From assembly GCA_949299565.1 (NCBI GenBank), contig OX437086.1, forward strand, positions 166,919-230,918: a DNA stretch of 64,000 nt, written 5' to 3'. Positions 1 through 13,530 of this stretch are shown one piece after another. Source of the DNA: an uncultured Bacillota bacterium (GTDB taxonomy: Bacteria > Bacillota_I > Bacilli_A > RFN20 > CAG-826). Both the position numbers and the translations under genes were made by a program. The number at the start of each line of letters is the position of its first letter. Within the stretch, counting starts at the first letter, position 1. Under the pieces are notes generated by a model. The model did no database searches. It saw only the letters and a list, made by a program, of their open reading frames with translations, and was not told the origin of the DNA.

Positions 1-1129
1 GCTTCTCCTTACTCCTTGCAAGAGGTTCTGGCGCATTCAAATCATTAATTAGTTCGTCAAGAATATCCTCCATTGTAATGACGCCAACGAATTTATTGTT
101 TTGGACAACGATTGCCATATGCGTTTTTTCTTTTTTAAGTGTCGCAAAAACTTTAGTGATCGGTTCATCGAGATTTGTTACGACAGGTTCTACAAGAACG
201 GACAAAATGTTTAAATGCTCATCTTTTGCGTATTCTTCGAAGTAATTTTTCAAAACCAAAATTCCGATTACTTCGTTACGGTTTTCTTCGCTGCATACCG
301 GAATCCGACTATACGGAATGCGCGGTAATTTACGATTTAAAGAACTGGCCACCAAATCTTTGCTGCTTAAGGTCACAACGCGTTCGCGCGGAGTGTAAAT
401 ATCACGAACCTTAATTCGCCCGATCGTGAAAACGTTATCGATAATTTCCTTCTCGTCTTCTTCGAAAAGTGCCTCGGGTTTCTCTCCTTCTTCCGTTTCT
501 TCTTCAACATTGATAGCCTCATCAACTGAATTAAAAAGGTCGTCTGGCGATAATAAATTATCGCTTTTGATATGAAATAAGCGGTAAACGCCTTTTAAAA
601 CTAAGCGGAAAATGAAAATGATCGGATAAAGAAGAATTCCGACAATCAAGACAGGATACGCCAAAAAAACTGCCATGCGATTCGGGAAAGACTTCGAAAT
701 GATTTTTGGAACAGTGTCGGAAACCACATAAACCAAAACTGCCATGACGACAGTTGAAAGAACCGCCTCAATACCAGCGCCTAAGCCATACAATTGGCAG
801 AGGTTATAAAAAAGCATCGCGCTCAAATAGGACATCAAAGTCTGAACGATGTTGTTGCCGACGAGAACACTAATTAAAGTATTGTCAAAATTATCAACCA
901 AGCGAGTGACGAGTTTAGCAGTCCGCTTGCCCTTGGCCGCCTCTGCGTGAAAATGGTATTTGTTGCAGTTGCTGTAGGCGTTTTCAGCCGCGGAAAATAA
1001 ACCGCTCACAAGCAAAAGAACAGCAATAATAATCCAAACAACCCAATCAGGCATTCCCCAAACTGTCGTGTTAGTCGTAACGTTGTCAGCGGCTCTTGAG
1101 ATTAACAAAGTACACAAGTCAGGGTCCAT
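1..1129 (-). CDS. DUF21/CBS-pair membrane protein (CorC/HlyC-like), 3' end beyond window
   Basis: The reverse strand is open from an ATG at 1127-1129 to the window edge (about 376 residues seen), so the C-terminus is missing. The N-terminal part has several hydrophobic segments and the DUF21 features SGLFSAAENAY (near residue 45) and LVGNNIVQTL. An acidic linker follows, then a CBS-domain pair (FTIGRIKVRDIYTPR, then a second CBS ending near VGVITMEDILDELI). Family knowledge links this architecture to Mg/Co efflux or divalent-cation homeostasis at the cytoplasmic membrane; older annotations say hemolysin. The missing end should hold the CorC/HlyC transporter-associated domain. No clear ribosome-binding site precedes the ATG, and the frame stays open and hydrophobic for about a dozen codons upstream, so the start is uncertain. 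Confidence 0.85.
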   Translation of the reverse strand, partial: MDPDLCTLLISRAADNVTTNTTVWGMPDWVVWIIIAVLLLVSGLFSAAENAYSNCNKYHFHAEAAKGKRTAKLVTRLVDNFDNTLISVLVGNNIVQTLMSYLSAMLFYNLCQLYGLGAGIEAVLSTVVMAVLVYVVSDTVPKIISKSFPNRMAVFLAYPVLIVGILLYPIIFIFRLVLKGVYRLFHIKSDNLLSPDDLFNSVDEAINVEEETEEGEKPEALFEEDEKEIIDNVFTIGRIKVRDIYTPRERVVTLSSKDLVASSLNRKLPRIPYSRIPVCSEENRNEVIGILVLKNYFEEYAKDEHLNILSVLVEPVVTNLDEPITKVFATLKKEKTHMAIVVQNNKFVGVITMEDILDELINDLNAPEPLARSKEK

Positions 1130-1167
1130 AAGTGAGATGAATATAACAAAAATAATAAAAGAATGCA

Positions 1168-1194
1168 AAAAAAGAGGGGTTAACTAAGCCCCTC
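1168..1194 (-). terminator. Rho-independent terminator, probably the original end of the rpsF-ssb-rpsR operon
   Basis: On the reverse strand GAGGGG and CCCCTC (arms at 1189-1194 and 1174-1179) enclose a 9-nt loop and are followed by seven T residues. It lies between the GC-rich insert and the CBS gene. The flanking bases are AT-rich and host-like, so I infer it terminated the rpsR transcript before the insert arrived. Confidence 0.8.
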
Positions 1195-1235
1195 TATAAA
1201 ATCAAATTTGCGTGTCGCCGCACGGACCCATCCGT

Positions 1236-1250
1236 CCCCGAAACTACAAT
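1236..1250 (-). repeat. Left boundary box of the GC-rich insert
   Basis: The reverse strand reads ATTGTAGTTTCGGGG. The 11-base core ATTGTAGTTTC recurs in the same orientation at 3100-3110, directly after rpsR, and in both places a small hairpin follows (here ACGGA-TGGG-TCCGT, 1222-1235). The host-like AT-rich sequence resumes just to the left. I infer a target-site or attachment-site duplication. Confidence 0.5.
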
Positions 1251-1274
1251 CTTCTCCCTTCCAAGGCGATCATG

Positions 1275-1466
1275 CCGCGTTTCCATAAATCCGCGAATGG
1301 TCTTTTCAAAAAATCTCTTGCCCATGCCCAGGCAGCCTCGCATAAGGAAAAAGCAGGCACCGTCTGGCTTGTCCGGGCTTGCCACGAAGCGATCCGGGCT
1401 TGCATGGGAAGCGTTTCTCGCAGGCTAAGGAATTCGCCAAGGAATAAGAAAAAGGCCTCGCCGAGG
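1275..1466 (-). repeat. 192-bp dispersed repeat, copy A
   Basis: By hand alignment this copy matches 2857-3048 at about 154 of 192 positions (80%) with no gaps and in the same orientation. It begins (reverse strand) with a CCTC-GGC-GAGG hairpin followed by T-rich sequence, immediately after the acyltransferase stop codon. Both strands carry open frames through it, but translated identity in the reverse frame is only about 65%, below the nucleotide identity. That argues against protein constraint and for a structural DNA or RNA element. Confidence 0.75.
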
Positions 1467-1476
1467 GAATCGGCCA

Positions 1477-2529
1477 TTACCCGGCCTTCAAGCCGGGATT
1501 TTCCCTATTCCTGCCAATTGATCTTAGAACAAGCGAAATCAAATAGGCCAAAAGGAAGGAAAGCACGGCAACCAACAACGGGCGAAGCCACTCCACCGCG
1601 AATTCCGGCCAAGGCCAAACGGTCGAGTTCAGCGACCTGACCGTATAGCCGACGAGATGGTGATAGAGATAGACGTAGACCGAGCAGTACCTGCCTAGAT
1701 AGCCGAGCACCGGGACGGGACGGCGCACATTCGACCTGAGGCAGCATAGCAAGAGCAACGAACCCGTTGTTATCTTGAAGATCATGGAAATGTCCGCTGC
1801 GTCAACCTTCAGGCAGACGGTCAGGAAGAGCAACCCGAAAGAGGCGGCCAACGACAGCAATAACGGCCAAGTCGGAACCCTGTCGGTAAGTTCCTTATAT
1901 CGGCGGAGAGCTGAACCTAATATGACGATGGGCAAGCCGCCGAAAAGGAATATGCTGCCGGCGTGGTAGTCGAACCATTCCCCCGAAGGGTAGATACTTA
2001 TGTATATCTCGACCGTTATCTTGCCAATAAGCAGAAGCGGCAACAGCCAATAGAAGATCTTCTGGAGACGGTATTTCTCCATCAGGTAAAGTATCGGATA
2101 GCATATCAGCAGGTTTACCATGAACCAGAGGTGCCCGGCCCTGATGAAGGAAAAATCCATCAGGTAGACGGCCTTGAGGTAAACGTAGGGATCTTTATAT
2201 TGTTCCCAATACGAAGAAGAGGTCCCAAGGGCATAGGCGCTTACCATGGAGTAGATGAAATACACCGCGAAGGCGACCACGGTGATGATGAGGTTTCGCT
2301 TGGCCCGCACGAGCAGTTTGGTCGGACTGCTGCCGTCCGCGGTCGAGGACTGGTAGCCGGTTATCAGGAAAAAGACGATGACGCCCATGGTACCGAAACT
2401 CCCCATTATCTTCCCGAAATACCCCGGAAACTGGTAATGAGCGAAAACCACGCCGAGGGCCAATAGAGCCTTGACGGCATCAAGCAGGTTGTTCCTCTTC
2501 CCCATATTCTCCCCGGGGAATTCTACCAT
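1477..2529 (-). CDS. Acyltransferase family 3 membrane protein
   Basis: This 350-residue, very hydrophobic protein has about ten predicted membrane segments. Its N-terminal signature is that of acyltransferase family 3 (OafA/NodX-like O-acetyltransferases): a histidine in VVFAHYQFPG, then GVIVFFLITGYQ. Members transfer acyl groups, usually acetyl, to sugars of surface polysaccharides or glycolipids at the cytoplasmic membrane. The ATG at 2527-2529 is preceded by GGAGG at good spacing; an internal ATG eight codons in has a GGGGAGA sequence but too close. GC content and codon use differ strongly from neighbouring genes, and the gene lies between two 192-bp repeats, suggesting it is horizontally acquired cargo. 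The substrate cannot be told. Confidence 0.85.
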   Translation of the reverse strand: MVEFPGENMGKRNNLLDAVKALLALGVVFAHYQFPGYFGKIMGSFGTMGVIVFFLITGYQSSTADGSSPTKLLVRAKRNLIITVVAFAVYFIYSMVSAYALGTSSSYWEQYKDPYVYLKAVYLMDFSFIRAGHLWFMVNLLICYPILYLMEKYRLQKIFYWLLPLLLIGKITVEIYISIYPSGEWFDYHAGSIFLFGGLPIVILGSALRRYKELTDRVPTWPLLLSLAASFGLLFLTVCLKVDAADISMIFKITTGSLLLLCCLRSNVRRPVPVLGYLGRYCSVYVYLYHHLVGYTVRSLNSTVWPWPEFAVEWLRPLLVAVLSFLLAYLISLVLRSIGRNRENPGLKAG

Positions 2530-2856
2530 AAATCCTCCAGCAACGAGGAAAAATCAGCATCGCCAACCGTCTCGTAGCAATTACCGAGGTAGCGGAAATG
2601 GGTTTTGCCGTATACCTCGATGAGACCGCCTTTGTAGCCGGAAAGGATTACCGGAATTGAAGATGCCACGAGATCGGAACGTACGAATTCGAGACTAAAA
2701 AGCGAATCGAACCGCCCCATCATCCGTCCATCGGGACCGTAGGCCACGATTTCGTCCTCTTCGCATCCGGCGAAGGCGCCGGCGGTCAACGACGGGTTAC
2801 TAGGCTGGGGCAAGCCACACGGGGGAATGTAGTTGGAATCCCCATTGCGCAGCAGT
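2523..2856 (-). pseudogene. 5'-truncated unrecognised coding remnant, fused in frame to repeat B
   Basis: A frame open from 3014 (inside repeat B) continues to a stop at 2523-2525. The first part translates the repeat; beyond the repeat lie about 110 residues, the last 85 of which look like ordinary protein (GRFDSLFSLEF, VILSGYKGGLIEVYGK, FRYLGNCYETVGD). Its stop overlaps the acyltransferase start (ATGGTAG), so the two may once have been a translationally coupled pair. I do not recognise the family. No ribosome-binding site is evident before candidate starts near 2745, so it is more likely the 3' remnant of a gene cut by the repeat than an intact small gene. Confidence 0.45.
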
Positions 2857-3048
2857 CCGCGTTTCCCTCGATCCGCGAACGGCTTTTCCAAAGGATCCCT
2901 TGCCCACGCCCAGGCAACCGGGCGACGGGAAAACGCAGGCGCCGTCTTGATTATTCGGGCTCGCCACGAAGCGATCCGGGCCCGTTTGGGAAGCGTTTCT
3001 GGCAGGCTAGGCAATTCGCCAATACATAGAAAAAGGGCCTCGCCGAGG
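2857..3048 (-). repeat. 192-bp dispersed repeat, copy B
   Basis: This is the same-orientation partner of copy A, ungapped and about 80% identical. The most conserved blocks are the first ten bases, GCCACGAAGCGATCCGGGC, TGGGAAGCGTTTCT and the terminal GCCTCGCCGAGG (forward strand). The copy follows the rpsR gene and provides a better terminator hairpin than copy A. Confidence 0.75.
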
Positions 3049-3053
3049 AGGCC
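3030..3053 (-). terminator. Rho-independent terminator at the head of repeat B
   Basis: On the reverse strand GGCCTC, a 6-nt loop and GAGGCC are followed by CTTTTTC. In the present arrangement it would end transcripts that read out of rpsR before they enter the acyltransferase cassette, leaving the acyltransferase dependent on another promoter or on read-through. Confidence 0.65.
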
Positions 3054-3094
3054 AATGGAGAACGGTTCTTGTTGTGATTTCCGGGAAAATCGAG

Positions 3095-3110
3095 CCCGGG
3101 AAACTACAAT
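3095..3110 (-). repeat. Right boundary box of the GC-rich insert
   Basis: The reverse strand reads ATTGTAGTTTCCCGGG starting six bases after the rpsR stop codon. It shares ATTGTAGTTTC with 1240-1250. A hairpin with a single bulge (TTTCCCGGG against CCCGGAAA) overlaps it and extends to about 3078. Confidence 0.5.
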
Positions 3111-3116
3111 TGCGAA

Positions 3117-3347
3117 TTAACGAACGCCAACTTCTGGCAAAAGACCCATAAAGCGTGCGTTTTTAATTGCTTTGGCGAGCTGACGTTGATATTTTGCGCT
3201 CGTGCCAGTCGCGCTGCGGGGAGCAATCTTTCCATCAGGATTGATGAAACGACTCAAAAGTTCCACATCCTTGTAATCAATATGCTTTATATGGTTCTTT
3301 GTGAAATAACAAACCTTTTTACGGGTTCGAATCTTTTTATAAGCCAT
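3117..3347 (-). CDS. rpsR: 30S ribosomal protein S18
   Basis: The 76-residue product has the S18 core ([20 protein letters not shown], then ISxKG-like [27 protein letters not shown] in two parts) and usual length. S18 binds S6 on the small-subunit platform. The start [11 protein letters not shown] is chosen because AAGGAG precedes it; an upstream in-frame codon would add 17 non-conserved residues overlapping ssb. It is the last gene of the classical rpsF-ssb-rpsR operon, 19 bases after ssb. The foreign cassette begins a few bases beyond its stop codon. Confidence 0.97.
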
Positions 3348-11343: not shown

Positions 11344-13530
11344 TTAAGCGTTTGAAGAAGTGTCGTCCTTTGTCGATTTTTCTTCCGCTTGAGAATTTGT
11401 TTCTTCTTTTGTCTCTTGCGCCTTTTGCCCTAAAGGACCGTCGCTTTTTTCAATCGCTTCAGCTTTTTCTTTGCTGGGAAGCTGACCAGTTTTTACAAGA
11501 GACTCAATTTCCTCAGCAGTAATCGTCTCCTTCTCTAATAATGTATTAGCGATAAGAGTAACTTGATCGGCGTGTTCTTTAATAATGGCAATCGCCTGCT
11601 GATGGCAATTTTCAATAATCTGTCGGACGGCATTATCGATTTCAAAGGCCACTTGTGTCGAAAAATTCTTCTGCGTATCCATATAATCACGACCAAGGAA
11701 AACAGAAGAATTGCTCTGTTCATATTGAATAGGACCGAGCGAAGACATGCCAAACGTTGTGACCATCATTCTTGCAATCTTCGTCGCCTGTTTGATGTCC
11801 TCTTCAGCGCCGGTGGAAATATCGTCGAAGAATACTTCTTCTGAAGAACGACCACCAAGCAATCCCGTAATTTGCGCTAACAATTCTTTCTTCGTGAGAA
11901 GGAAACGGTCATCTTCCGGCGTCATCAAAACGTGCCCGCCGGTTTGTCCGCGCGGAATGATTGTGATTTTTTGCACTTTTTCAGCATGCGGAAGCACAAG
12001 GCCGATAATCGCGTGACCCGATTCATGGAAAGCATCTATCTTCCGCTCTTGTTCAGACATTCCGCGTCCAGATTTGGCAGGTCCGGCAATCCGGCGATCA
12101 ATCGCCTCATCGATTTCCGCCATCGTGATCGATTCTTTGTTAAAACGGACAGCAAGAATTGCCGCCTCATTGAGAATATTTTCAATATCGGCACCAGAGA
12201 AACCGACCGTTCTTTGAGCTAAAGCCTTGAAGTCAACAGAAGGATCAATATGTTTGTTGCGAGCATGGACACGGAAAATAGCTTCGCGTCCAACTTTATC
12301 GGGCAAAGAAACAGTGATGATTCGATCGAAACGTCCAGGTCTTAAAAGCGCTGGATCTAAAACATCATCACGGTTGGTAGCTGCCATTACAAGAATGCCA
12401 GCATTGTAATCAAAGCCGTCCATTTCGACTAAGAGTTGATTGAGCGTTTGCTCGCGTTCATCATTGCCGCCGCCAAGACCTGCACCTCTTTGTCGACCAA
12501 CAGCGTCAATTTCATCGATGAAGATGATGCAAGGAGCCGTAGCCTTCGCCTTCTTGAAAAGATCGCGAACACGTCCAGCGCCAACGCCGACAAACATTTC
12601 CACAAAATCAGAACCGGAAATGCTATAGAACGGAACGCCGGCTTCACCAGCCACCGCTTTAGCCAATAACGTTTTACCAGTGCCGGGCGGACCAATCAAA
12701 AGGACGCCTTTCGGCAAGCGCGCACCGTATTTAGAATACTTTTTCGGTTCTTTGAGATATTCCACCATCTCAACCATTTCGGCTTTTTCTTCATCATTGC
12801 CGGCAACATCGCTGAAACGCACTTTGGAAGCGTCTTCGCGCCGGGCGGGCGATTTATTGAAATCCATCGCTTGACGGTTAGAGCCGTTGACCGCGCCAGA
12901 AAGGCGACTGATGAGGAAAATCGCTAAACCAGCGATAAGAACAATATAAATAAGAGTCGGACCCCACGTATCCCACCACGAAACCGCGAAAGCATCATTA
13001 ACAATTAAGCCTGGCGCTCTTCCGAATTGATCAACGATTTCGGCATTGGAATTCCATTGTTCGGTTTTTGCGAGGAAGATGGCCGAATAAGAATCGTGTT
13101 CAACTCTGACTTGACCGCTTCCATCTTCAGCGGGGATGAAAATTGTAAACGGCTCATTCCAATGACTTTCATTGATATTGACCGTGAAATTAAAACTTGA
13201 ATAACGATTTGTTTCGAAATTGATTGAATAGGCAACGCCAGAGACAGTCACCATTCGGCTGTTTGTTGATTCGCTATACTGTGGAATGAAATAAGATTCG
13301 TTTGTTTCAACAATCTGAATATCTTCTTCCTCGTTTCCGTTCCCGTCATCGCGGAGACTCAATTGGTAGCCCAAATAAGTGTCGAGCATACCTTCGTTCC
13401 ACGTCACCGTATTGTTCCATGAATTCCCGAATATCAAAAAGACGAAAAGAAAGATAATAACTGCAATAATAATGGCGGGTAAGAGCATCGACCACATGCT
13501 GCGGCGAGGAGCTTTATTGTTATCGTTCAT
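11344..13530 (-). CDS. ftsH: ATP-dependent zinc metalloprotease FtsH
   Basis: This membrane-anchored AAA+ protease degrades misassembled membrane proteins and regulators. The 728 residues run: membrane helix 1 (residues about 14-34), an extracytoplasmic domain of about 130 residues, helix 2 ([16 protein letters not shown]), then AAA Walker A GPPGTGKT, Walker [12 protein letters not shown], second region RPGRFDR, and protease zinc motif HESGH near residue 505. The C-terminus is a low-complexity Glu/Lys/Ser tail. The extracytoplasmic domain is longer than the roughly 70 residues of the E. coli protein. Its place next to tilS is conserved across Bacilli. Confidence 0.97.

Follow-up and report, generated by a model that had tools for sequence, protein, structure and literature searches.

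The locus examined here raises the question of how a block of GC-rich DNA, with one intact gene and no recombinase, came to lie directly behind the essential gene rpsR, and what could have moved it there. The window (the whole stretch of 64,000 nucleotides that was analysed) belongs to a genome, G000, consisting of a single contig of 1.06 Mb. Within the window the GC content is 0.48-0.63 across positions 1201-3000 as against 0.37-0.47 on either side, which agrees with the initial annotation, where a foreign cassette of higher GC than the host had been placed between the rpsR stop codon and a host terminator. The parts of the locus between 1160 and 3341 are all on the minus strand. The rpsR gene, of which the coding part without the start region was tested (3117..3341, 74 codons, Pfam Ribosomal_S18, stop codon at 3117-3119), served as the anchor for finding the equivalent locus in relatives. 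The two same-orientation repeats of 192 nucleotides that had been reported are present at 1275-1466 and 2857-3048, with 80% identity and a spacing of 1582, and a search of the 1.06 Mb of G000 showed these two copies only.

On comparison with relatives, the limits of the inserted element were set at 1213-3108, comprising a left arm (2857..3108), cargo and a right arm (1213..1466), with CGCAA on both sides. The order at the junctions is rpsR...TAATT-CGCAA-T-[TGTAGTTTCC...GCGGCGACA]-CGCAA-ATTTG...terminator, where the left copy of the target duplication occupies 3110..3114, with a single additional T at 3109 separating it from the element, and the right copy occupies 1208..1212. The arms correspond to positions 1-252 and 61-314 of a unit of about 314 nucleotides, and the 192-nucleotide repeat is the overlap of these two partial copies. 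The left arm starts with the terminus TGTAGTTTCCCGGGCTCGATT and contains subterminal repeats and a built-in rho-independent terminator-like hairpin (3036..3053, GGCCTCCTCGGCGAGGCC with a T-rich tail), which is kept in all left ends and which likely closes rpsR transcription after insertion; the right arm, holding the second repeat copy, ends in GTGCGGCGACA. Between the arms lie the captured 3' fragment of an XRE-family gene (2523..2863), a broken ORF whose whole gene has 438 codons, and the intact acyltransferase gene that had been noted earlier (1477..2529), encoding an OafA-like membrane protein of 350 residues (Acyl_transf_3, Pfam E-value 3.8e-19) with perhaps a role in surface O-acylation, judging from its family. 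Host DNA resumes at 1160..1207 with what reads as the original rpsR terminator (GAGGGGCTTAGTTAACCCCTC TTTTTTT, approximately 1165-1200), and in G012, G019 and G026 an analogous stretch comes after the right end.

Removal of one CGCAA would give TAATT-CGCAA-ATTTGATTTTATAGAGGGGC as the empty site of the window species. Empty sites had been predicted in relatives and do exist, with rpsR leading straight to a terminator (e.g. G035, L069), however the predicted course through ATTGTAGTTTC proved wrong, and the TTGTAGTTTC motif is part of the element ends, not of the empty site. The gene behind rpsR in the window (1-1150) encodes a CBS-domain membrane protein and was not found close to rpsR in those relatives that were read; in several of them gdpP-rplI-dnaB takes that place.

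The arms turned out to be members of a wider family. We located rpsR in 60 relatives and read the DNA behind the gene, and in ten genomes the same sequence was found to start directly behind it; the left arm of the window is 89-91% identical to the units behind rpsR in G094, G022, G093 and G026. A whole-genome search detected the complete 314-nucleotide unit (family A) in 11 of the 37 genomes of the genus and in three genomes of the sister genus g21, giving 14 genomes in two genera, and in all 14 the first A left end lies 0-14 nucleotides after the rpsR stop. A second family of arms, C (TGTGTCAGGACGA.../...TCGTCATGGCACA), is related to A; one of its units gives matches in 26 of 279 genomes from the order, and nearly every one of the 26 belongs to the same GTDB family. 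Family C, too, lies behind rpsR wherever rpsR is on the contig (as in G013 and in the sister genus g21), with a similar distance between the stop and the first left end, and occupies this spot in a dozen further genomes of that GTDB family. A third kind of end, B, accompanies the cargo common to G017 and G028. The repeat thus recurs in other species with other cargo, an outcome that had been named beforehand as support, and the outcome in which it is found nowhere else does not apply, though G000 itself has no copy elsewhere. The elements are 0.3-2 kb long, share one orientation and form tandem arrays. Of the unit matches away from rpsR that were checked, the majority lie close to the end of a contig, where arrays interrupted during assembly would be expected; the genomes are for the most part fragmented MAGs, composites occur among the arrays, and the arrays of G012 and G019 were read across contig breaks. 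The hosts are uncultured Bacilli, probably of the gut given the kind of MAG.

A scan of a genome collection returned the same MAGs and G116 (L124), and the search of plasmids and viral contigs as carriers gave no unit. One hit of the collection scan, in an Opitutaceae contig, was discarded as an unrelated chance match, and so were eight viral matches to the B end, which showed nothing similar beyond the 17-nucleotide pattern. The repeat was also considered as a gene; its ORFs are without Pfam or NCBIfam match and, on inspection of the units, indels between copies appear to break the frame.

The ends of these elements provide the main clue to how they insert. Each element starts with TGT and ends with ACA, within imperfect terminal inverted repeats. 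On alignment, the A termini read TGTAGTTTCCCGGGCTCGATTKYCCCGGAAATCAC on the left and, reverse-complemented, TGTCGCCGCACGGACCCATCCGTCCCCGAAACTAC on the right, and match each other ungapped at 21 of 36 positions (10.3 in shuffles, P 1e-4), while 40 of 55 positions agree between the C ends (P <5e-5), each of which contains an internal repeat spaced by 24 nucleotides (P ~0.008 per end). These subterminal repeats resemble transposase-binding sequences and are putative sites of that kind. When an offset of up to 4 nucleotides is allowed, 11 of the 22 arrays carry the same 5 nucleotides in the rpsR-proximal flank and in the flank of a distal right end. Permutation gave 1.06 on average and 7 at most, with none of 20,000 permutations as good; without offset, 5 of the 22 match where 0.55 would be expected. 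Three right flanks in this comparison were added by hand, that of L168 from an earlier reading of the locus, and a second contig supplied those of G012 and G019. The duplicated 5-mers include CTAAG, TCTTG, CCCGC, ACAAA, CTTGT, CTTGA, GCTTG and CCGCA, besides CGCAA in the window, and since they vary by host, each is a copy of the target in the host concerned. In several arrays the flanks are mismatched or match only after a gap of 1-4 nucleotides, the window having one extra T and G004 needing 13. Neighbours within arrays are typically 5 nucleotides apart, and these spacers are often identical to the 5 nucleotides flanking rpsR, as would be expected from repeated insertion at one spot.

Considering these features together, the block is probably (with a chance of roughly 0.7) a non-autonomous, site-specific cassette of Tn7/Mu type that uses rpsR as its attachment site and is mobilised in trans. 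The TGT...ACA termini and a second subterminal site would be recognised by a DDE transposase of Tn7/Mu type supplied from elsewhere, and this enzyme, which may recognise the 3' end of rpsR, would insert elements one way round just behind the gene, duplicating 5 bp of host DNA; Mu also duplicates 5 bp. Repeated insertion at one spot would then build the tandem arrays. The terminator built into the left arm would take over from that of rpsR and thus render the insertion harmless to the essential gene.

The initial annotation had instead compared the block to a gene-cassette unit in which each gene is followed by a shared structured sequence. Extended to a mechanism, this would mean integron-like cassettes, with a tyrosine integrase acting on a structured site after each gene and rpsR providing an attI-like start. 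A same-orientation array behind a fixed point, with a shared sequence for every gene, cargo that is varied and differs in GC, and no recombinase in the array, is what such a system would look like. Nevertheless the host-specific 5-bp duplications and the inverted-repeat termini argue against it, the arms fold no better than shuffled DNA (z 0.30 and 0.55) and give no credible Rfam match, and the tyrosine recombinases of G000 (PF00589) number only two, of a size and kind present in all 37 genomes, probably XerC and XerD. Moreover, cargo was captured with a cut gene and not as gene plus site, so that the proposed cassette layout is not supported either. We regard an integron-like origin as very improbable; although in both a series of different single genes, all in the same orientation and with a shared intergenic sequence, follows a fixed point, the target duplication, the terminal inverted repeats, the mode of capture and the want of an integron integrase set them apart, and the rpsR cassettes are not integron cassettes.

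The cargo is diverse and nearly all of it is oriented like rpsR; in none of the cassettes read, including that of the window, for which this had already been noted, is there a recombinase. It includes GmrSD (G018), a HATPase-Z1-DUF4420 operon (G022), PDC-S01/DUF4143 (G029, also G012 and G022), Schlafen/AlbA (G029, G012), DUF5655 (G030), an ArsB/CitMHS permease (G017, G028), a membrane protein without family name (G026, G018, G032) and a gene for a protein of 414 residues that reads as antiporter-like (seven g21 genomes). Going only by their PADLOC or Pfam names, several of these are candidate defence genes. A peptide with what reads as a Nif11-like leader is cargo in two rpsR arrays (L165 of G100, L171 of G109).

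Comparison of cargo with host genes points to recent movement. The antiporter-like gene is 99.0-99.7% identical among G095, G099, G100, G110 and G121, whereas rpsR is only 72-81% identical in the measured pairs of these carriers; more generally, cargo is 98-100% identical across species with rpsR at 72-81%, and the outer arms differ. From such identities it is concluded that cargo has recently moved between species. The identity of the antiporter segment extends from inside the left-arm terminator to near the start of the right arm, while the outer left ends of its carriers are of different subtypes, indicating that cargo was exchanged between non-identical arms, an outcome to be expected of recombination within the arms but not of a transposase that cuts at the tips. 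The window cargo tells a similar story. Its segment 2863-1466 shares 96.4% identity with G007:C2 36091-37487, and this slice stops exactly at the arm edges. There, the acyltransferase homologue is 91% identical and interrupted by stops, and the upstream XRE-type gene is whole, whereas the window keeps its 3' part only, from which it follows that capture ignores gene boundaries. This source-like locus has no detectable A or C arms, and slightly further on it contains segments that share 97% identity with the cargo carried by G026, G018 and G032. Hence a second process is proposed, in which homologous or microhomology recombination within the long conserved arms would swap cargo or capture pieces of chromosome.

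Two loci deserve mention in their own right. At L214 (G007:C2 30000-44000), source-like copies of two rpsR cargos lie a few kb apart beside AT-rich foreign genes, and this locus is possibly another exchange hotspot. At L072 (G022:C4, ~10.8-11.8 kb), a PDC-S01 cassette in the rpsR array of a low-GC species is joined to DNA that is 90% identical to a stretch of the chromosome of a high-GC relative, comprising an XRE gene together with the initial portion of cysK.

Such exchange could also be explained if there were no present mobility at all, the arms being relics of old transposons (MITE pairs) fixed behind rpsR that now act as homologous arms only, with exchange by transformation and RecA-type recombination. 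A complete host genome without transposase, the swapping of antiporter cargo among arms that differ in subtype, and window arms that are only 80% alike and thus come from different units, would all agree with this. However, the many host-specific 5-bp duplications, in both genera, need many separate insertions, and the spacers within an array, being identical, speak for insertion having occurred repeatedly at a single target, making a purely relic state unlikely.

We also looked for the enzyme that the trans-mobilised cassette would need. No rve domain was found in G000, and a Tn7 transposase was not found in the 279 genomes of the order. For TniQ nothing exceeded the cut-off in these genomes, a search whose controls were also silent and which is too weak to prove absence. 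Mu-transpos_C exceeded the cut-off once in the 279 genomes, and one further match fell below it. The single match is L131 (G128:C41), a Mu-type transposase-like protein of 632 residues on a 3.1-kb contig that looks like a Mu-like phage. The rve genes of the two genera were considered as mobilisers and set aside, as the loci read look IS3/IS30-type from their ORF sequences. No autonomous relative with matching ends was found through the rve loci or the TniQ and Mu-transpos_C searches. With no candidate enzyme, the transposase would be transient, on an unassembled replicon or of an unrecognised kind.

Integration at rpsR is known from staphylococci, where the gene is an island hub and SaPI4-type islands enter within the end of the gene, at its 3' end, through a tyrosine recombinase, with 15-bp direct repeats (PMC8407400). 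The rpsR cassettes might accordingly be remnants of a phage satellite or genomic island integrated by such an enzyme, and duplications of the rpsR 3' end around cargo in G006, G034 and G100 would fit this. The cassettes, unlike those islands, begin after the stop codon without restoring the gene end, contain no integrase and are flanked by 5 host-specific bp instead of a 15-bp core; an island origin is thus most improbable, although rpsR as an integration hub is common to both. The duplicated ends themselves, 20-37 codons plus stop and without recombinase, are seen in L056 (G006, 621-2357), L055 (G034, 4559-2267) and L165 (G100, 12335-12394), the cargo of G006 lying between them without any A or C arms, and they may reflect another mechanism of integration at this gene.

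Among known systems, Tn7 combines a 5-bp duplication, arrays of sites at its ends, fixed orientation and an attachment site at a conserved gene (PMC11406308). The rpsR cassettes resemble Tn7-like transposons (attTn7 behind glmS etc.) in the 5-bp duplication, multi-site ends, fixed orientation, an attachment site adjoining a conserved essential gene and cargo that includes candidate defence genes. In contrast, TnsA/B/C and TniQ are neither in the element nor detected in the genomes, the cassettes measure only 0.3-2 kb, the site is rpsR and the long arms would double as sites of cargo exchange; since our searches for the defining proteins found none, we do not class them as Tn7 members. Mobile insertion cassettes carry passenger genes between inverted repeats without a transposase and depend on an enzyme in trans (PMC5444012; PMC6542083). 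With these (MIC/MICE) and with MITEs the rpsR cassettes share inverted-repeat ends, a passenger gene, no transposase and dependence, as proposed, on a trans enzyme, but they differ in the strict single site, the one orientation, the tandem arrays, arms of ~250 nucleotides and the fact that no parent insertion sequence was found. The rpsR cassette would therefore work like a mobile insertion cassette with Tn7-like homing.

A search of the literature, covering open-licence papers, found no description of cassettes behind rpsR. A bolder proposal, which we hold tentatively and think somewhat doubtful, is that of an undescribed two-layer system, in which a dedicated enzyme plants paired arms behind rpsR across a whole bacterial family and the arms then act as a docking bay, exchanging arbitrary chromosomal segments, defence genes especially, between species without any mobility gene in the cassette. 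Even apart from this, the first ~15 nucleotides after rpsR are a predictable address for horizontally moving genes in many uncultured Bacilli, presumably of the gut, and several genes at this address are of putative defence type. The puzzle is that there is recent site-specific cassette traffic, while the mobilising enzyme is neither in the cassette nor recognisable in complete carrier genomes. Should there be a Tn7-type enzyme with a selector for rpsR, a new member would be added to the defined insertion sites that adjoin essential genes.

Finally, the contigs of G002, G005, G008, G012, G019, G027 and G032 stop within ~40-700 nucleotides behind rpsR, a hint that strains vary or that repeats occur there even where no unit is recognised.
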